A program made the translations under genes and the position numbers. DNA of 64,000 nucleotides from Rudanella paleaurantiibacter (GTDB taxonomy: Bacteria; Bacteroidota; Bacteroidia; Cytophagales; Spirosomataceae), in contig NZ_WELI01000012.1 in NCBI RefSeq assembly GCF_009184635.1, positions 62,001 to 126,000 of the forward strand, in the 5' to 3' direction. Below the pieces are notes generated by a model that worked only from the letters and a program-made list of their open reading frames with translations, ran no database searches and was not told where the DNA came from. Shown here one piece after another: positions 684 to 53,141 of the stretch; the stretch's first letter is position 1, and each line of letters begins with the position of its first letter.

Positions 684-1700
684 ATGAAAACATCGCTTAG
701 TATAGCCCTGTTGCTGGGCGTTCTGATTACGGGGCAGGCCCAGCCGTTGCCCACTATTGGTAAAGTGGTTCGGTTAGACCCCCGCCTGGATAAACTCGTG
801 CCCAAAGACGCGCAGATCGACGTACTCGCGAGTGGGTTTACCTGGGCCGAAGGGCCGATTTGGGTGAAACAGGGCAATTATTTGCTATTTTCCGATGTAC
901 CCCAGAATACCGTGTTTAAGTGGTCGGAGAAAGACGGTTTATCGACGTTCCTGAAACCGTCGGGTTATACCGGCACCGGCGTGTATAGCGACGAACCGGG
1001 CTCCAACGGGCTAACCCTCGACGCGCAGGGGCGGCTCGTGCTCTGCGAACACGGCGACCGGCGGGTGTCGGTGATGCCGCTGAGCGGGGGCGGTAAACGC
1101 ACCGTAGCTGACCACTACGAGGGCAAGCGATTCAACGCCCCCAACGATGTAGTGGTGCATAGCAATGGTAGCTACTACTTCACCGACCCGCCTTATGGTT
1201 TGGCCGGTAAAGAAAAAGACCCCACCCGCGAAACGCCCCTGTTTGGCGTGTACCGGGCTACCTTGGCCGAAGGGGGTAAGCCCGGCCGGGTGTCGTTACT
1301 AATCGACGACCTGACCCGCCCCAACGGGATCACGTTCTCGCCCGACGAGAAAACCCTGTACATTGCCCAGTCGGACCCTAACCGGCCTGTTATTATGGCG
1401 TATCCCATGCAACCCGATGGCTCAGTTGGGAAAGGGCGGGTGTTTTTCGATGCCTCGGCGTTGTTGAAACAAAACCTGCCCGGCCTGCCCGACGGCCTCA
1501 AAACCGACCGCGACGGCAACGTGTGGAGCACAGGGCCCGGTGGGGTGCTCGTGATTGCCCCCGACGGTACGTTGCTGGGCCGAATTGATACAGGACAGGC
1601 TACCGCCAACTGTGGTTGGGGTGATGCCGATGGGCGTACGCTCTACATCACCGCCGACGGGTATCTGTGCCGGATCAGAACCACGGCACGGGGGTGGTGA
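684..1700 (+). CDS. SMP-30/gluconolactonase-family exported lactonase
   Basis: The 338-residue product starts with a signal peptide (about residues 1-19, ending TGQA), so it is probably periplasmic or surface-located. The rest fits a six-bladed SMP-30/LRE propeller: TWAEGPIW with the metal-ligand Glu, SNGLTLDAQG, FNAPNDVVV with the expected Asn ligand, and PNGITFSPDE with PDGLKTDRDGNVW near the C-terminus. Family members hydrolyse sugar lactones such as gluconolactone with a divalent metal; the actual substrate cannot be read from sequence. It stands alone between a divergent DUF5916 gene and mrdA. Confidence 0.85.
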   Translation: MKTSLSIALLLGVLITGQAQPLPTIGKVVRLDPRLDKLVPKDAQIDVLASGFTWAEGPIWVKQGNYLLFSDVPQNTVFKWSEKDGLSTFLKPSGYTGTGVYSDEPGSNGLTLDAQGRLVLCEHGDRRVSVMPLSGGGKRTVADHYEGKRFNAPNDVVVHSNGSYYFTDPPYGLAGKEKDPTRETPLFGVYRATLAEGGKPGRVSLLIDDLTRPNGITFSPDEKTLYIAQSDPNRPVIMAYPMQPDGSVGKGRVFFDASALLKQNLPGLPDGLKTDRDGNVWSTGPGGVLVIAPDGTLLGRIDTGQATANCGWGDADGRTLYITADGYLCRIRTTARGW

Positions 1701-1834: not shown

Positions 1835-3784
1835 ATGTTAGAGAATCGTAAGTATATCATCATCGGCGCTTTCTGCCTCGTCGGGCTGATATATCTGTCC
1901 CGCTTGTTTTATCTCCAGATTTTAGACGACAGTTACTCGCTCGAATCGTCGAACAACTCCATCAAACGGGTCATTGAAATTCCGTACCGGGGTCAGGTTT
2001 ACGATCGAAACGGGAAACTCATTGTGTACAACACGCCTGTATACGACCTGTACGTGACGCCTAAGCAAGTACGCATTCCCGACACGACGGCCTTTTGCCG
2101 GATGATGGAAATGACGCGTGCCGAGTTCGACAGCATCATGAACCTGGCCAAGGAGTACTCGCCCGTAAAGCCGTCGCTGTTTGTTCGTCAGCTCTCCAAA
2201 GAAGATTTTGCCCGTATTCAGGATGCCCTCGTCGACTACCGGGGCTTTGAGCCGCGCATGAGCTCCATGCGGACATACCCGGCCCGTACCTTGTCGAATG
2301 CGCTCGGGTATGTGTCGGAAATAAGCAAAAAGCAGCTCGAAAATCAGGAGATCCCCTACTATCGGCAGGGCGATTATATTGGTCATAATGGGCTTGAAGA
2401 GCAGTACGAAGAGGTGCTGCGTGGTCGTCGGGGCGTCAAGTTTGTGATGCAGAATGTGCGGGGGGTGGCCAAAGGGTCGTTCAAAAATGGCCTGTACGAT
2501 ACTGCCGCCGTAGCGGGTAAGAACCTTTATACCGGCATCGATGTAGAGGTGCAGAAATACGCCGACAGCCTCATGCAGAACCGGATCGGTAGTGTGATTG
2601 CGGTGGAGCCCTCGACCGGCGAAATTCTGGTTTCGGTATCTGCCCCAACCTATGACCCCAACCTGCTGTCGAGCCGACACTTTTCCAAAAATTACGTTAA
2701 GCTGCTGCGCGATCCGTACAAGCCGCTCATTAACCGCCCGATTATGGCGAGTTACCGGCCGGGCTCTACGTTCAAGCTGATTCAGGCCCTCATTGCGCAA
2801 CAGCAGGGTACGCTTACCCCCAATATGGTGTACGGGCACGGTGGCTCACCGATGCGCTGCCACTGTCATGGCGGTAACAACCTGCGCGGGGCCGTGCGGT
2901 TTTCGTGTAACCCGTATTTCTACAACGTGTTCCGCAAAATGATCTACCACAACGGCGATCCGAACACGTTCAAAGCATCGGCGATTGGCTTGCGGCAGTG
3001 GCACGATGCCGTGGAGAAGTTTGGAATTGGTCAGAAACTGGGTGTCGATCTGCCTACGGAGCTGAAAGGGAGCCTGCCCGACGTTGAAACCTACGACAAG
3101 CTATACCGGGGCAAAAACACCTGGAAGTTTTCAAATATTTACTCCCTCAGTATCGGTGAAGGTGAGTTGCTGGTGAACCCCCTTAAGCTCGTGAATTTGG
3201 CGGCTACTATTGCCAACCGGGGCTGGTACATTACGCCACACTACGTAAAAGGCATTGGCCGGGTGGGTGAGGGCATTCCGCAGGAATACCTCAAACGGCA
3301 CGAAACTGATATTGCTTATCAGCACTACCTGCCCGTGATCGAGGGAATGCGGATGGCGGTTGCAGCCGGTACCGTAAACAAGATGGCCGATATTCCGGGT
3401 ATTGACTTGTGCGGCAAAACCGGTACGGCCCAAAACAACAAGTTTGGCCACAAGTACGACCACTCTATTTTTATCGGATTTGCGCCCATGAACAACCCCA
3501 AAATTGCCATTGCCGTATTTGTGGAGTACGGCGGCTGGGGTGGGTCAGCGGCTGCCCCGGTAGCAGCCCTCATTGCCGAGCGGTACCTGAAACGTAAAAC
3601 CGAAGCCACCAAGCTCGACGAACACGTGAAAAAGCAGTATCTGCTGCCGCCGGTGTCGATGCTGCCGGGCTACAAGGGTCCCAAAAAGGCTCCGCAGATT
3701 CGTAAGCCCGAACCGGTGCAGAAAGACACCGGCCGCAAAGTGGAAAAACTCAAGCCTATGATGGCCAGCAATAGTGGCGAGTAG
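1835..3784 (+). CDS. mrdA: Penicillin-binding protein 2 (peptidoglycan transpeptidase)
   Basis: This 649-residue class B PBP cross-links peptidoglycan during cell elongation, working with the SEDS polymerase RodA encoded next. One N-terminal membrane segment (about residues 7-27) is followed by the PBP dimer domain and the transpeptidase domain. The catalytic motifs are all visible: S311-TFK, S357-C-N359 and K528-T-G530. The C-terminus has a charged Lys/Pro-rich tail. In many Bacteroidota mreC and mreD lie directly upstream; here an SMP-30 lactonase gene occupies that place. A long low-complexity inverted repeat separates it from rodA. Confidence 0.97.
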   Translation: MLENRKYIIIGAFCLVGLIYLSRLFYLQILDDSYSLESSNNSIKRVIEIPYRGQVYDRNGKLIVYNTPVYDLYVTPKQVRIPDTTAFCRMMEMTRAEFDSIMNLAKEYSPVKPSLFVRQLSKEDFARIQDALVDYRGFEPRMSSMRTYPARTLSNALGYVSEISKKQLENQEIPYYRQGDYIGHNGLEEQYEEVLRGRRGVKFVMQNVRGVAKGSFKNGLYDTAAVAGKNLYTGIDVEVQKYADSLMQNRIGSVIAVEPSTGEILVSVSAPTYDPNLLSSRHFSKNYVKLLRDPYKPLINRPIMASYRPGSTFKLIQALIAQQQGTLTPNMVYGHGGSPMRCHCHGGNNLRGAVRFSCNPYFYNVFRKMIYHNGDPNTFKASAIGLRQWHDAVEKFGIGQKLGVDLPTELKGSLPDVETYDKLYRGKNTWKFSNIYSLSIGEGELLVNPLKLVNLAATIANRGWYITPHYVKGIGRVGEGIPQEYLKRHETDIAYQHYLPVIEGMRMAVAAGTVNKMADIPGIDLCGKTGTAQNNKFGHKYDHSIFIGFAPMNNPKIAIAVFVEYGGWGGSAAAPVAALIAERYLKRKTEATKLDEHVKKQYLLPPVSMLPGYKGPKKAPQIRKPEPVQKDTGRKVEKLKPMMASNSGE

Positions 3785-46877: not shown

Positions 46878-49800
46878 TTAGAAAGAAAGGTTAAGGCCGA
46901 GTAATACAGTTTTAGCAACCGGGTACGCACCACCGTCGACGCCGATCTGACGGTCGTTGCCGGCTGAGTAGTTCCGCAGGTTGATTTCGGGGTCCATGCC
47001 TGAGTACTTGGTGAACGTCAGCATGTTCTGGCCCTGAATGTACACCGATAGGCCACCCACCTGGAGCTTGTTGAGCAGCGCCTGTGGCAACCGGTAGGTC
47101 AACTGGATGTTTTTCAGCCGGAAGTACGAGCCCGATTCGAGGTAGTACGTTGAGGGCTGAATACTTACCTGATCGCTTGAGGTCAGGCGGGGCAGAACGG
47201 CGTCGGTAGCACCGGGCCGCCACGATTGATAGAGCATCCGGGTTGAGCGGTTACCGCCAAACGTCGGGAAGTCGGTCCAGTATTTCGTGTAGTTGAAAAT
47301 CTGGTTGCCCTGAACGCCCTGCCCAAACAGGGTAAGCGAGAATGTGCGGTAGTTGACGCCCAGGTTCAGGCCGTACGTAAAGCCGGGGTGCGGGTTACCA
47401 ATAATGGTCTGGTCTTTAGTATTGATTACCCCGTCGTTGTTCACGTCGCGGAACTTGAACCGACCAGCTACGTTTTCGGTGGTGGCATTGCCAAACTGTA
47501 CCGGGTGGGCCTTGGCTTCTTCATTGGTCTGGAAGATACCGTCAACAACGTACCCGAAGAACGACGAAATGGGGTGGCCCTGCTGGGTTACCACGAAGTT
47601 CTGAATCCGCTCATCGTTGATGCCGAAATACTGCGTGTTGGGGTCTCCATTCGTTTTGGTTACCTGGTTACGATACGTGCTGAAGTTGGCCGAAACGTCG
47701 TAGGTCAGGTCGCGGAGTGCGGTACGACCGTTGTACGTAATGGCGAGGTCGATACCCTTGTTGCTCATCTTACCAATGTTCTGGAACGGCACCGAGGCTA
47801 CGCCCTGCGTGAGCGGAGCCGCCACCGGGAACAGCATATCGCTTGTTTGGCGGGTGTACCAGTCGAGGGCTACCGTTAGGCGGTTTTTAAACATCGACGC
47901 ATCAATACCGATGTTGGTGCTGGTTGTGGTTTCCCACTTGGCGTTTGCGTTACCGAATTGGGTAAGCTCATAGCCCGGCACGGCGTTGGTGCGTGAGCCG
48001 TTGAGGTCATAAAACGACGTGATTGGGTTGGTACCAAACTGGGTAAACGAGTTGTAGTTACCAATTTCCTGGTTGCCGGTTTGGCCGTAGCCAATGCGTA
48101 GCTTGGCATCATCGAGCCACGATACATCTTTTAGGAAACCCTCCTGCGAGAAGCGCCAGCCAGCACTGACAGCCGGGAAATAAGCCGTGCGGAAATCGCG
48201 GGCGAAACGCGACGAGCGGTCACGGCGCAGGGTTAAGTCGAGTAGGTAGCGGTCGTTGAAAGCGTAGTTGACCTTCGCGAACTCCGACGCGAGGCTCCAG
48301 TTCGAGGCTGTTCCGTTGTTCGTTTGAACCCCGGTACCGGCGCTTAGGTAGCGGTTGTCCAGATCATCGACGGCAAAGTTGGTCCGGCTGGCGTCGAACG
48401 TTTCGAAGTAGCTCTTGATGGCCTCTGTACCGGCAATAATGTTGAGCCGGTGCAGGCTGCCCAGGTCTACGTTGTAGGTCAGGGTGTTGTACCAGGTCCA
48501 GGTCCAGTCGTAGTTGTTGCTTGTCTGGAGCAGGTTCGACCCCCGGGCCTCAGCCGATTCAATATCCCGAATCGTGTAGTTGCGCAGGTTGAAGATGTTG
48601 TAATCAATACCGAAGCTGGTACGGGCGGTCAGGTTTTTGGCCACATCAACTTCGGCAAAGGCATTCCCGAAAAGCCGGATTTCCTTCTGGACGTTGTTGC
48701 GGTTCCGATACAGCAGTGCCATTGGGTTGTTGGCATTATCGAGGTCGCCCCCGCGTGTACCGGCAAAGGCCCCGGTTACGTCGTACACCGGAATAATGGG
48801 TTGAATCCGGTAAGCAAACGAAATAGGGTTACTCTCGTTGCTGTTGCCATTGGGCTGCCCGATACGCTCGCCGTAGGCTACCTGGAAGTTTTCGCCCACG
48901 CGCACCCGCTTGGTCACGTTAAACTCGGTGTTGGCCCGCAGTGAGTACCGCTTGTAACCGGTGTACTGCATGATACCCTGCTGGTTGAAGTAGTTCAGCC
49001 CCATAGCGTACCGACCCGATTCGTTACCGCCCGATACCCCCAGCTGATGATTCTGAATCGGGGCTACCCGGCCAAATACTTCTTCGAGCCAGTTGGTCCC
49101 CTCTTTGTTTGCCTTGGTAATGAGCCACTTGGTCTTGTTGAAGTCAGCCCCGTCGATGTTGTTACCGTAGTTGATATAGTTGCCGCTGGCATCGCGGGCT
49201 ACGCGAGGATCGCCTTCAAAGGCACCGCTCGGGAATACATAATCAGGAATAACGGGTGTAGCGCCATTGCCAAACTGTGAGTGAACAGGGTTACCGTTGG
49301 CGGCTACTGCCCCGGCGTTTTTCCGCGACTCCCAGACCAAATCGGCATACTCTTTGGTGTTGAGCATATCGAGCAGTTTACCGTGCCGCTGCGATCCGTA
49401 GTAGGTGTCGTAGGTAAACTTGGGCTTACCGGCCTTCCCTTTTTTGGTGGTGATAATCACGACCCCGTTACCGGCCCGCGACCCGTAGATCGATGAAGCC
49501 GATGCATCTTTCAGAATCTGCATCGACTCAATATCGTTCAGGTTAAGGGTATTCAGGTTCCCTTTGGTTGGCACCCCATCAATTACGTACAGGGGCGAGT
49601 TGTCGTTGATGGTACCGAACCCGCGTATACGTACCATCACACCACCACCCGGCGAGTTATCGTTACCGACCTGCACCCCCGATACCCGGCCCTGTAGAGC
49701 CTGCCCGAGGTTGGTAGCGGGTACCGACAAAAGCTGCTTTGTATCGACGGTGGCAACGGCCCCGGTGATATCGCGCTTCGATTGGGCACCATAGCCGGTG

Positions 49801-50150
49801 ACAACTACCTCGCTCAGGGTTTTAATATCGGGCCGCAGCTGAATATTAATCTGGGTTTTATTGCCAATATTGACCTCCTGCGATTCAAAACCGATAGCAG
49901 ATACCGTCAGCCGGTCCCGGTTGGCGGGTACGTTGAGCGTATAATCGCCATTAGCGTCAGTTACTACCCCCGTTTGAGTACCTGTAACCACAATGTTCAC
50001 ACCGGGCAGCCCTGCGTTTTCGCTCGCGTCTGTAACTCGACCAGTAATTTTACGGTCCTGAGCTATCGCTGAGACAGCCATAAAACAGCAGAAAACGCAA
50101 AGCGTGAGCATAGATAGCCAACGCCCTGCGTTCGGGTAATTTTGTTTCAT
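46878..50150 (-). CDS. SusC/RagA-family TonB-dependent outer-membrane transporter
   Basis: The 1090-residue protein has a signal peptide (ending VSAIAQ near residue 31), a CarboxypepD_reg-like domain (about 33-115: KITGRVTDASENAGLPGVNIVVTG), a TonB box/plug (TLSEVVVTGYGAQSKRDITGAV; LQGRVSGVQV; RIRGFGTINDNSPLYVIDGVP), and a beta-barrel with the final strand SYFRLKNIQLTYRLP and LLGLNLSF. There is no STN domain, so control through an anti-sigma factor is not indicated. It imports oligosaccharides or peptides with the SusD partner; stop and start are separated by one base. Confidence 0.96.
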   Translation of the reverse strand: MKQNYPNAGRWLSMLTLCVFCCFMAVSAIAQDRKITGRVTDASENAGLPGVNIVVTGTQTGVVTDANGDYTLNVPANRDRLTVSAIGFESQEVNIGNKTQINIQLRPDIKTLSEVVVTGYGAQSKRDITGAVATVDTKQLLSVPATNLGQALQGRVSGVQVGNDNSPGGGVMVRIRGFGTINDNSPLYVIDGVPTKGNLNTLNLNDIESMQILKDASASSIYGSRAGNGVVIITTKKGKAGKPKFTYDTYYGSQRHGKLLDMLNTKEYADLVWESRKNAGAVAANGNPVHSQFGNGATPVIPDYVFPSGAFEGDPRVARDASGNYINYGNNIDGADFNKTKWLITKANKEGTNWLEEVFGRVAPIQNHQLGVSGGNESGRYAMGLNYFNQQGIMQYTGYKRYSLRANTEFNVTKRVRVGENFQVAYGERIGQPNGNSNESNPISFAYRIQPIIPVYDVTGAFAGTRGGDLDNANNPMALLYRNRNNVQKEIRLFGNAFAEVDVAKNLTARTSFGIDYNIFNLRNYTIRDIESAEARGSNLLQTSNNYDWTWTWYNTLTYNVDLGSLHRLNIIAGTEAIKSYFETFDASRTNFAVDDLDNRYLSAGTGVQTNNGTASNWSLASEFAKVNYAFNDRYLLDLTLRRDRSSRFARDFRTAYFPAVSAGWRFSQEGFLKDVSWLDDAKLRIGYGQTGNQEIGNYNSFTQFGTNPITSFYDLNGSRTNAVPGYELTQFGNANAKWETTTSTNIGIDASMFKNRLTVALDWYTRQTSDMLFPVAAPLTQGVASVPFQNIGKMSNKGIDLAITYNGRTALRDLTYDVSANFSTYRNQVTKTNGDPNTQYFGINDERIQNFVVTQQGHPISSFFGYVVDGIFQTNEEAKAHPVQFGNATTENVAGRFKFRDVNNDGVINTKDQTIIGNPHPGFTYGLNLGVNYRTFSLTLFGQGVQGNQIFNYTKYWTDFPTFGGNRSTRMLYQSWRPGATDAVLPRLTSSDQVSIQPSTYYLESGSYFRLKNIQLTYRLPQALLNKLQVGGLSVYIQGQNMLTFTKYSGMDPEINLRNYSAGNDRQIGVDGGAYPVAKTVLLGLNLSF

Positions 50151-50544: not shown

Positions 50545-50552
50545 TATATTTG
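50545..50552 (+). promoter_or_regulatory. -7 box for the first candidate RNA
   Basis: TATATTTG is an exact TAnnTTTG match. A transcript from about 50559 to the terminator at 50711 would be about 150 nt. Confidence 0.55.
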
Positions 50553-50558
50553 CGGACA

Positions 50559-50711
50559 GAAAGAGAATACAGGTCAGCAACGCGCTGGACATTACATAGA
50601 TATTAGTGCCAGGAAACTGGCGCGAAGGCAAACAGTCAATTATTTGGCTGTTTTTAAATGGTGTGGATATAGTCGGAAAGCTATTTGGGAGATCCTGAAT
50701 AGCTTTTTTTT
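50559..50711 (+). ncRNA. Candidate structured RNA, copy 1 of 2
   Basis: No reading frame of note is present. From 5' to 3': GTGCCAG-GAAA-CTGGCGC hairpin with a GNRA tetraloop (50606-50623, one G-U), a GAAGG linker (50624-50628), a 10-bp hairpin AAACAGTCAA/TTGGCTGTTT with loop TTAT (50630-50653 region), the core AAATGGTGTGGATA (50656-50669), CGGAAA (50674-50679) and a terminator, AAAGCTATT/AATAGCTTT plus T's (50677-50711). The same order and core occur 252 bases downstream. It lies between susC (divergent) and a two-component system. It is not a riboswitch I recognise. The ends are inferred from the -7 box and the terminator. Confidence 0.6.
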
Positions 50712-50775
50712 GGCCTTTACTTAAGTATTAAATGAATTTTAACGCCTGCTTAACACCCGTTTAATCCGGCCCTAT

Positions 50776-50783
50776 CATCTTTG
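50776..50783 (+). promoter_or_regulatory. -7-like box for the second candidate RNA
   Basis: CATCTTTG differs from TAnnTTTG in the first base only and lies about the same distance ahead of the second RNA as TATATTTG does ahead of the first. Confidence 0.4.
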
Positions 50784-50789
50784 TATCAC

Positions 50790-50960
50790 CAAACCAGACA
50801 GAACAACAAAGTCGGTTTCAAACATAAGTATTTGCTGTAAGCATAAAGATCCTTTACAAAGGGAAGGTTGAACATCAAGGTTTACTCGCGTTAGCGCGAT
50901 AGCCTTGAAATGGTGTGGATAGAAGCGGAAAACCGTTGGAGACTCTTCAACGGTTTTTTT
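50790..50960 (+). ncRNA. Candidate structured RNA, copy 2 of 2
   Basis: It has the same architecture as the copy at 50559: hairpin CCTT-TACA-AAGG (50851-50862), GAAGG linker (50863-50867), hairpin TCAAGG...CCTTGA with an inner CGCG-TTAG-CGCG (50875-50908), core AAATGGTGTGGATA (50908-50921, 14 of 14 identical), CGGAAA (50926-50931), and a 13-bp terminator, AAAACCGTTGGAG/CTTCAACGGTTTT with loop ACT (50929-50957) plus T's. The stems differ in sequence but are preserved as stems, which argues for a functional RNA fold. It ends 109 bases before the response regulator gene. Confidence 0.6.
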
Positions 50961-51069
50961 GTTGCCCACTGCGGAAATATGGCGAATAATTAGTATATCG
51001 GAACGAAGCGGTAAATAAGTAGTTCGAACGTTTCTTGTAAAAAGCCTATTTGACCCGTAAGTTTCGTTT

Positions 51070-51747
51070 ATGAAGGTACTTGTAGTAGAAGACGAGCCAA
51101 AATTGGCCTCATTCGTCAAGAAAGGATTAGAAGAGCAGCAGTGTGAAGTCGAAATGGCATACGACGGTCAAATCGGTCGGACGATGGCGCTGAGTAATGC
51201 GTACGACGTGATCATTATGGATGTGAACCTGCCTAAAATGAATGGGTTTGATGTGGTACAGTCCATTCGGCAGGAAGACATCAAAACGCCCGTACTCATG
51301 CTCACAGCCATGGGGTCGGTTGATGATAAGCTCACGGGCTTTGAATCAGGAGCCGACGATTACCTGGTGAAGCCGTTTGAGTTTCGGGAGCTGATGGCGC
51401 GGTTGAAAGCCTTGTACAAACGGGGGCATGATACCGGTCCGCAGCCCAACGTACTGAAAGTGGCCGATCTTGAACTCGATCTGAACGAGAAGGTAGCTCG
51501 CCGACAGGGGAAGCGCATTGAGCTGACAGCCAAAGAGTTTGGGCTGCTGGAATACCTGATGCGTAACCGGGGGCGGGTAGTGTCAAGGGTCGACATTGCC
51601 GAGAAAGTGTGGGATATTCATTTCGATACCGGCACCAATGTGATTGATGTGTATGTCAATTTCCTTCGTAAAAAAGTGGATAAAGAATTCTCGCCCAAAC
51701 TGATTCATACGGTGATCGGGATGGGCTACATGCTGAAAGAGGAATGA
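51070..51747 (+). CDS. OmpR/PhoB-family response regulator
   Basis: The 225-residue protein has a receiver domain (1-115) with acidic pair E7-D8, phospho-acceptor Asp51 in VIIMDVNLPKMNG and Lys in LVKPFEF. A winged-helix DNA-binding domain follows (about 130-222: KRIELTAKEFGLLEYLMRNRGRVVSRVDIAEKVW ... VIDVYVNFLRKKVD). Its stop overlaps the kinase start by ATGA, so the two are co-translated. Confidence 0.96.
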   Translation: MKVLVVEDEPKLASFVKKGLEEQQCEVEMAYDGQIGRTMALSNAYDVIIMDVNLPKMNGFDVVQSIRQEDIKTPVLMLTAMGSVDDKLTGFESGADDYLVKPFEFRELMARLKALYKRGHDTGPQPNVLKVADLELDLNEKVARRQGKRIELTAKEFGLLEYLMRNRGRVVSRVDIAEKVWDIHFDTGTNVIDVYVNFLRKKVDKEFSPKLIHTVIGMGYMLKEE

Positions 51748-53141
51748 ACATCCGCACCCGTCTGACGCTGTTGTTTACGTTGCTGGTGGCTTCCATCATG
51801 CTGCTGTTTTCGCTGTCGATTTACTATTTGTACAATCAATTTCGCGAAAACGAATTTCAACAACGTCTGGAGGATAAAGCCATGACGGCCGCCCGGCTGC
51901 TGGACGACGTGGGTCAGACCTCTAAAGATGACCTGACCACGATGGTCGCGGAGCAGGTGTCTGTGTACAATAATCAGGATAAGGAAGTTTACCGGAGTAA
52001 CCAGACAAACCCGGTGTTTGAGATTACGCCGGAGGTACGTCGGCAGGCCCGTAAAGGCGGTTCAATTCGGATTCGGGTTGATACGCTGGAAGCCGTAGTG
52101 ATGCATTACTACTCGCTGACGCACAAGCAGGACTATGTCATGGTGGCGTCGGGGTACGACCGGTTTGGTTTCAGCAAGCTTGACCGGCTTCGCGAGATTC
52201 TGTTTTTTGGCTGGCTGTTTAGTCTGATGGTTGTAGCGGTGGCGGGCTGGCTTTTTTCCAGTGATGCCCTGCGACCTGTATCCGAACTGATTGAGCAGGC
52301 TAAGGCTATTTCGGGAACAAATATTCACCGACGGCTGCGGGTAGGCCGTCAACGCGACGAACTGGCGCAACTGGCGCTCACGTTCAATGAAATGCTGCAA
52401 CGGCTCGAAGAAGCCTTTGTGACTCAGAAAAGTTTCGTGTCGCACGCGTCGCACGAACTACGTACACCCCTGGCGGTTATGATGAGTCAGATCGATGTGG
52501 CCCTTATGCAGCAGCGGTCGACGGTTGAGTACGAAGCCTCATTGAGTGAATTGCTCGACTCGGTTAAAAACATGATGGGGCTGGTAAACGGCCTGCTCGA
52601 ACTGGTGCGCGCCAACTCCGACTCGGTCACGCTCAATTATCAGCCCGTGCGGGTCGATGAGTTGCTGTGGCAAGCTCGTAGCGCCCTGTTGCTGAAACAG
52701 CCCGATTATCTGATCGAGATCGATTTTGAGAATATGCCCGAGCAGGAAGAAGACCTGATTCTGCTCGGCGAAAGCCACCTGCTGACCACGGCCTTCCAAA
52801 ACCTGATGGAGAACGGCTGTAAGTATTCGTCGGACCATGCCGTAACGGTAAGCCTGCTGTTTACACCCGATCAGGTGCAGGTTAGCTTCGTGGATGAAGG
52901 GTTGGGGATTCCGGCGGCTGATTTACCCCATATTTTCGAGCCATTTTATCGCGCTGATAATATCATGACCGTAAAAGGACATGGTATTGGGCTGGCCCTG
53001 ACCCGGCGTATCATCAATCTGCACAAAGGAAATATACAGGTTGCTTCGGTCGAATCGGTAGGAACAACGATCACGGTAACTTTTCCATTGCGGGAACCAA
53101 CTCCGGCTGTTCAGCCTCTTTTAGAAGAAACTGCCGAATAA
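51744..53141 (+). CDS. Membrane sensor histidine kinase
   Basis: The 465-residue partner of the preceding regulator has two membrane segments (about 9-30 and 152-172) enclosing a periplasmic domain of about 120 residues. A HAMP region (about 172-225) is followed by HisKA with His237 in SHASHELRTPLAVMMSQ and HATPase_c with NLMENGCKYS, DEGLGIPAADLPHIFEPFYRAD and GHGIGLALTRRI. The signal is unknown; metal or envelope stress would be typical for this CusS/QseC-like architecture. Confidence 0.94.
   Translation: MNIRTRLTLLFTLLVASIMLLFSLSIYYLYNQFRENEFQQRLEDKAMTAARLLDDVGQTSKDDLTTMVAEQVSVYNNQDKEVYRSNQTNPVFEITPEVRRQARKGGSIRIRVDTLEAVVMHYYSLTHKQDYVMVASGYDRFGFSKLDRLREILFFGWLFSLMVVAVAGWLFSSDALRPVSELIEQAKAISGTNIHRRLRVGRQRDELAQLALTFNEMLQRLEEAFVTQKSFVSHASHELRTPLAVMMSQIDVALMQQRSTVEYEASLSELLDSVKNMMGLVNGLLELVRANSDSVTLNYQPVRVDELLWQARSALLLKQPDYLIEIDFENMPEQEEDLILLGESHLLTTAFQNLMENGCKYSSDHAVTVSLLFTPDQVQVSFVDEGLGIPAADLPHIFEPFYRADNIMTVKGHGIGLALTRRIINLHKGNIQVASVESVGTTITVTFPLREPTPAVQPLLEETAE

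Follow-up and report, generated by a model that had tools for sequence, protein, structure and literature searches.

FopS of Bacteroides thetaiotaomicron is described as comprising 14 paralogous sRNAs with an unpaired seed and a terminator, which pair at the initiation regions of susC and other mRNAs, and many of their targets encode surface proteins (PMC11697453, Nat Commun 2025). The same source ties FopS to the RRM protein RbpB and reports it as deposited in Rfam, and it describes GibS, also of B. thetaiotaomicron, as an sRNA that pairs at translation initiation regions and has two seeds in one gene (PMC11697453). Among the papers listed by our search of open-licence PMC papers there was no sRNA work in this group beyond FopS-related papers and no description of the sRNA family presented below, and for Bacteroidota other than gut species sRNA regulation seems to have received little attention. 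A further point of comparison is given by decoy sRNAs of the CsrB/RsmY type, which carry GGA motifs and have a possible link to two-component systems.

The window (the whole 64,000-nt stretch of DNA analysed here) holds two tandem elements that are sister members of an apparently undescribed family of predicted sRNAs with many copies in one family of environmental bacteria.

Two tandem elements beside a two-component system

The elements lie in a 920-nt intergenic gap, with a SusC/SusD-like pair on the reverse strand on one side and a response regulator and a histidine kinase on the forward strand on the other. Domain searches identified the regulator (51070-51747, forward strand; Response_reg and Trans_reg_C) and the kinase (51744-53141, forward strand; HAMP, HisKA and HATPase_c). 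The divergent neighbour of the elements is a SusC-like TonB-dependent receptor gene (46878-50150, reverse strand), which is present beside them in the window's genus and in one record labelled 'Flavobacterium sp. SUN052' (see below); by eye, no complement of the conserved core was seen at the start of this gene.

Both elements read on the forward strand. Copy 1, assigned to class A, has a predicted transcript of ~150 nt (50559-50711; delimited by box position, fold and covariance model) and follows the box TATATTTG (50545-50552), read from the sequence as an exact TAnnTTTG, which in both copies we take to be the Bacteroidota -7 promoter box. Its centroid fold contains hairpin 1 (50606-50623) and hairpin 2 (50630-50653; AAACAG...CTGTTT), after which come the conserved core and proposed seed, the 14-mer AAATGGTGTGGATA (50656-50669), and CGGAAA (50674-50679) with an intrinsic terminator (50674-50711). 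Copy 2, a predicted class B sRNA (50790-50963; fold, class-B sequence set and covariance model), follows the box CATCTTTG (50776-50783), read with one mismatch to TAnnTTTG, and is common to other genera from ~50848 onward. There it holds a conserved 5' block, GATCCTTTACAAAGGGAAGGTTGAACATC, made of a small hairpin and GGTTGAAC (50848-50876; invariant alignment columns), a hairpin 2 that covaries across genera (50875-50908; class-B alignment and fold), the same 14-mer (50908-50921), and CGGAAA (50926-50931) with its intrinsic terminator (50926-50961).

The order of parts in both copies is a hairpin, GAAGG, a hairpin, AAAT, GGTGTGGATA, four free bases, CGGAAA and a terminator. The initial annotation had described two tandem copies with such a common order, an identical 14-mer and CGGAAA, agreement at 21 of 24 positions over the block that spans them, an intrinsic terminator in each copy and an exact or near-exact -7 box before it; the coordinates hold, a recount again gave 21 of 24, and a terminator hairpin with a T-run was read in both copies. 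A terminator scanner found none at the two elements, probably owing to stems that extend into the T-tract, and a sigma-70 scan was likewise uninformative. Scores against the covariance model were 68 bits (copy 1) and 69.1 bits (copy 2), and folding compared with 200 shuffles gave z = -5.1 and -3.45, respectively. The core is predicted to be free in the centroid structure of copy 1 and in short class-B RNAs such as that of L021, and partly paired in copy 2, where 8 of its 14 bases pair with the longer 5' part typical of the window's genus.

A multicopy family with a constant core

Reduced to its minimal unit, the element reads (A)AT-GGTGTGGATA-N4-CGGAAA-terminator. Within the window's bacterial family, 81 of 222 genomes and 16 of 36 genera contain the exact pattern GGTGTGGATA-N3-5-CGGAAA (this family, f1, mixes NCBI Spirosomataceae genera with Rudanella, which NCBI places in Cytophagaceae), while the reversed-pattern control occurs 0 times among the matches listed; the frequency of the core-plus-CGGAAA pattern is far beyond chance. 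Two of the 81 genomes, from genus g8, presumably Dyadobacter, match at loci lacking a proper terminator hairpin (L014, L015), probably by chance, and 79 genomes in 15 genera are left without them. A DNA search in the window's genus recovered the pair together with extra copies elsewhere.

The initial annotation had proposed a covariance-model search of the order, and with a model of core plus terminator this search found further copies, matching 71 of 391 genomes, 60 of them in the window's bacterial family. Outside this family ten genomes were marginal (E 6.6e-5 to 9.6e-5), and the lone convincing homologue, in G515 (family f18), scores 40 bits (L345, 1001-1054) and keeps both the core and the class-B block GGTTGAACG. 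The window's own genome has three good matches. Genome G196 has at least 15, a minimum, as 15 candidates were scored per genome. In named genomes a longer pattern was found in 78 stretches, of which 74, counted by label and not one by one, are labelled Spirosoma, Runella, Larkinella, Fibrella, Fibrisoma, Fibrivirga, Arsenicibacter, Rudanella, Telluribacter, Persicitalea, Arundinibacter, Rhabdobacter, or unclassified Spirosomataceae, Cytophagales or Cytophagia. Another two stretches (Lachnospiraceae, Prevotellaceae) are without a terminator and resemble coding sequence. The remaining two come from 'Flavobacterium sp. SUN052' (L192, L207), a record that is probably mislabelled or contaminated; L192 shows synteny with the window, SusD, SusC, copies A and B, regulator and kinase following one another in that order, and its proteins are by eye closely similar.

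Searches against Rfam 15 gave no match above the gathering cut-off in the window, four matches in the region at E<=10, all far below the cut-off, and no match in ten loci with homologues. With homologues in many genera, covariation and no matching Rfam family, the initial suggestion of an undescribed structured RNA has held.

No part of the element is more constant than the 10-nt core. Drift affects the linker, the hairpins and the terminator, and paralogues differ from one another in their upstream hairpins, in the four free bases and in terminator sequence. The core was invariant in 37 aligned units (of 56 distinct units; the set excludes six elements that have no T-run as well as L015, L067 and L005, which is truncated), an invariance imposed by the exact search pattern, and in the family at large it is partly imposed because most members were found via the core. 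Members of genus g8 and the G515 homologue were found by covariance model and nevertheless keep it. CGGAAA is altered in the g8 members, in class-B copies of genus g22 and in the G515 sequence, with the core GGTGTGGATA intact in each. Weaker model matches, such as the third copy of the window's own genome and L354, depart from GGTGTGGATA. The smallest members consist of a TATATTTGC box, ~10 bases, the core and the terminator, for a predicted length of ~60 nt.

Class B has a second very constant stretch, ATCCTTTACAAAGGGAAGGTTGAACATC. In an alignment of 32 of its 48 distinct sequences, 17 of the 26 pairs of hairpin 2 changed on both sides, a number reached by 5 of 500 shuffles, and the covariation score was 0.380 versus 0.203 in shuffles (0 of 500 as high), which keep the relatedness among sequences, and 0.079-0.160 in slid registers, which remove it; the number of further pair types was unexceptional (67 of 500 shuffles). 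Two copies alone prove no covariation, so that the compensatory change first proposed from the pair in the window is borne out by class B across genera and not by the pair itself.

Such conservation also bears on the idea that the elements regulate nothing and are a dispersed repeat or a mobile, terminator-like element that duplication has spread. Copy number does differ strongly between genomes and some copies are tandem duplications (L071), but paralogues differ upstream with the core staying fixed, the class B structure is kept by compensatory change across genera, and the two-component locus retains an element over several genera; we give this explanation hardly any weight.

In many copies the core reads ATG GTG TGG ATA, and a reading as a short ORF was considered and rejected because several members lack the ATG. 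Just upstream of the core, L079 (~2972-3060, reverse strand) and L291 (~397-504) carry a perfect complement of it and L006 (~1474-1545, reverse strand) a partial one; the core would therefore be locked in a hairpin in these three members, which are possible sponges or self-silenced paralogues.

The two elements had also been read as possible tandem leaders of the two-component system. A cis-acting leader or attenuator of that operon would act by ligand- or protein-dependent termination versus read-through into the response-regulator gene. Consistent with this, the elements are structured and have a terminator, and an orthologous response-regulator gene (70-99% identical) follows an element at a distance of ~90-260 nt in five genera, g1, g5, g22, g24 and g33 (g33 is, we guess, Spirosoma). 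The element is class B in g1, g5, g22 and g33, where the regulators are 81-99% identical, and a single element of another type in g24, where the regulator is 70% identical. In genera g1, g5, g10, g22 and g36 a TAGTC-type copy (class A or similar) is followed by class B.

A leader would always be co-directional with the gene that follows; however, the next gene lies on the opposite strand for 21 of 82 elements, two of these cases (the window and L003) resting on a doubtful ORF, and on the same strand for 61, a number inflated by repeats of the two-component locus, near-identical loci being counted repeatedly (nine loci were left out of the count). Other members adjoin unrelated genes, for example RF3, DinB and a recombinase, the minimal members are without an aptamer-sized domain, and by eye the core has no complementarity to the regulator's own leader. 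We therefore consider a leader very unlikely as the general role of the family, although an element does stand before the orthologous regulator in five genera. The unrelated neighbours and the opposite-strand genes point instead to independent sRNA genes, and the other initial suggestion, a pair of sister sRNAs, agrees with the opposite-strand genes, with minimal copies built of a promoter-like box, core and terminator, and with members at many unlinked loci.

Several loci have arrangements of their own. In L071 (3001-7158) an element occurs in each of two tandem units, ~145 nt before a gene; the two genes are related and encode 464 and 623 aa, the shorter protein being without a Pfam match, as if element and gene had been duplicated together. 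Members in L044, L061 and L063 lie near a gene pair, which in L044 belongs to RES-domain and Xre/MbcA/ParS-type toxin-antitoxin families. In g33 (L055, L065, L078) class B stands between a gene and the orthologous two-component genes, and in L055 the gene on the far side is an AcrB-type RND pump.

Core complements at translation starts

We think it likely that copies 1 and 2, and with them classes A and B, are trans-acting antisense sRNAs of one multicopy family, whose members have a seed in common and would block translation initiation. Judging from its sequence, each copy would be transcribed from its own promoter and ended by its own intrinsic terminator, and the core AAUGGUGUGGAUA would be presented by the hairpin that precedes it and the terminator that follows. 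In target mRNAs the core would then pair with UAUCCACACCAU within the region of translation initiation, in many cases across the AUG itself.

The core complement UAUCCACACCAU ends with the first two bases of AUG, and its extension to the full start codon, TATCCACACCATG, occurs at 51 sites in the bacterial family compared with 12 for the reversed pattern (21 versus 0 in genus g33). Of the 51 sites 49 were examined; the other two coincide with covariance-model sRNA matches. When starts were called by a fixed ORF rule, 12 of the 31 sites in genera that bear the sRNA lie at translation starts versus 1 of 18 elsewhere (g8, 0 of 9; g2, g3 and g23 together, 1 of 9), with L268, L269 and L274, which look sRNA-like, kept as non-starts. 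Fisher's test gives p 0.007 for 12 of 29 versus 1 of 18, L253 and L254 (T-run) being dropped in this comparison only. The 0 of 9 in g8, a genus with one diverged sRNA copy, counts against this reading.

By the same rule 177 of 6577 ATGs generally lie at starts, and composition-matched controls gave 4.6-7.5% (1.6 Mb of one g33 genome). The 12 of 31 exceeds the ACCATG rate of 6 of 84 (binomial p 7e-7) and, with weaker significance, the small CACCATG baseline of 3 of 21 (binomial p 7e-4, Fisher p 0.05). Among g33 non-sRNA sites with an ATG within 30 nt, 6 of 24 were at starts versus 3.2%, where one of the six repeats L271 and rows that are sRNA-like by context or model had been removed via a hand-made list. 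All start calls use simple ORF rules and some sites are orthologous (L262/L271).

The bases flanking the core appear to drift together with those of the sites. The continuation is GGATAU in the sRNAs of g22 (class A) and g28, and GGATAG in most of those seen in g33 and g11; A precedes TATCC at 4 of 5 start sites of g22/g28 versus 0 of 12 of g33/g11 (p 0.002), and C precedes it at 9 of 12 g33/g11 start sites versus 6 of 22 internal sites (p 0.01). The lists of start and internal sites in these tests are hand-made, with L253 included despite failing the strict ORF rule and unclear sites omitted, such as L222, L225, L226, L248, L272, L281, L290, L308, L310 and L312. Two g22 start sites extend the sRNA match to 15 nt, and 3 of the 12 g33/g11 start sites (L267, L309, L319) gain no extension from their own genus's sRNA.

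The putative targets would be diverse and include secreted proteins, membrane proteins and proteins resembling lipoproteins. Five start-region sites (L262, L271, L273, L283, L319), four at the AUG and one 29 nt upstream, belong to genes for small secreted proteins of one homologous family (31-82% identity; weak DUF3244/Por_Secre_tail similarity). Other start-site genes encode a MacB/FtsX-type permease (L253, missed by the strict rule), a 3-keto-disaccharide hydrolase and unknowns, some appear from their N-termini, by eye, to be probable lipoproteins, and 10 of the 20 proteins scanned have no Pfam match at E<=0.01.

The concentration of complementarity at translation initiation regions is seen for long matches and not for short ones. 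In 1.6 Mb of one multicopy g33 genome, 1273 predicted initiation regions showed no enrichment of anti-core matches of 7-9 nt (8-mers, 11 versus a shuffle mean of 8.9, with 60 of 194 shuffles as high), and in the same genome near-matches (>=8/10) before ATG were at starts in 0 of 14 cases; the visible regulon therefore amounts to a limited set of long matches. In the window's own genome, 1 of 11 non-sRNA decamer sites lies by eye at an obvious start (L217), with 12 matches left outside the start/internal classing, and a DNA search did not find the L217 gene in three congeners. In this genome and a congener, stretches of 30-34 nt (L007, 1501-1536; L009, 1501-1532) match the class-A core region at 86-88%, apparently antisense to a protein-coding gene, which is probably due to chance.

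The same constant block could instead be a protein-binding site, with core and CGGAAA acting as a decoy of the CsrB/RsmY type or as a chaperone-binding 3' module and not as a pairing seed. Several GGA motifs lie in and around the core, and the conserved block adjoins the terminator, next to which chaperone sites often sit. Yet this would leave the site distribution and the co-drift with targets unexplained, CGGAAA has changed beside an unchanged core in the g8 members and in class B of g22, and CsrA (PF02599) was found in none of ten relatives including the window's own genome, with three control genomes positive. We rejected a CsrA decoy on this absence and regard a protein site in place of a seed as unlikely; a dual role in pairing and protein binding is possible, the proteins searched for being CsrA and RRM proteins.

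For the antisense sRNA reading, pairing would block translation initiation at sites distributed as described above, and with copies under different promoters, several signals could converge on one shared regulon, possibly with that of the adjacent two-component system among them. More tentatively, and as less likely than not, we suggest a lineage-wide regulon in a genus with no RRM-type chaperone detected, in which a start-codon seed of 10-12 nt would have been fixed since the family ancestor, copies would have risen to at least 15, each with its own promoter, flanking bases would co-drift genus by genus, and L079 and L291 would be sponges or self-silenced copies.

Comparison with FopS, GibS and CsrB-type RNAs

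The closest functional analogue of these elements is FopS, a likeness of descriptions and not of compared sequences. As in the description of FopS, paralogous sRNA genes, here predicted from sequence, occur in multiple copies in Bacteroidota and share one seed, the conserved seed, here as folded in copy 1 and in short class-B RNAs, is single-stranded and followed by an intrinsic terminator, and pairing is placed, here by prediction, at the initiation region. The differences are that the host belongs to another bacterial family, that no family of the Rfam copy used, which may lack a FopS model, was matched here, that a hairpin precedes the seed in most of the members examined and the seed often covers the AUG, and that the RRM partner type reported for FopS was not found in the window's genus: RRM (PF00076) was present in 0 of 4 genomes of this genus (one of them 71% complete) and in 4 of 10 relatives overall. 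With GibS, as described, the elements share predicted pairing at initiation regions, and unlike GibS they do not combine two seeds in one gene. The GGA motifs and a possible two-component link recall CsrB/RsmY, and the difference is that no CsrA was found in ten relatives.

The above analyses indicate that the window's bacterial family has a real, apparently undescribed multicopy family of predicted sRNA genes with a probable start-codon-covering seed, and its target logic has good comparative support. This would give a specific sRNA set that spans the bacterial family, in which the seed is defined, candidate targets at start codons can be listed for testing and seed and target covary naturally, and it bears on how sRNAs work in a genus in which neither CsrA nor an RRM protein was detected. 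The likeness to FopS suggests that multicopy sRNAs with a shared seed may be a recurrent solution in Bacteroidota.
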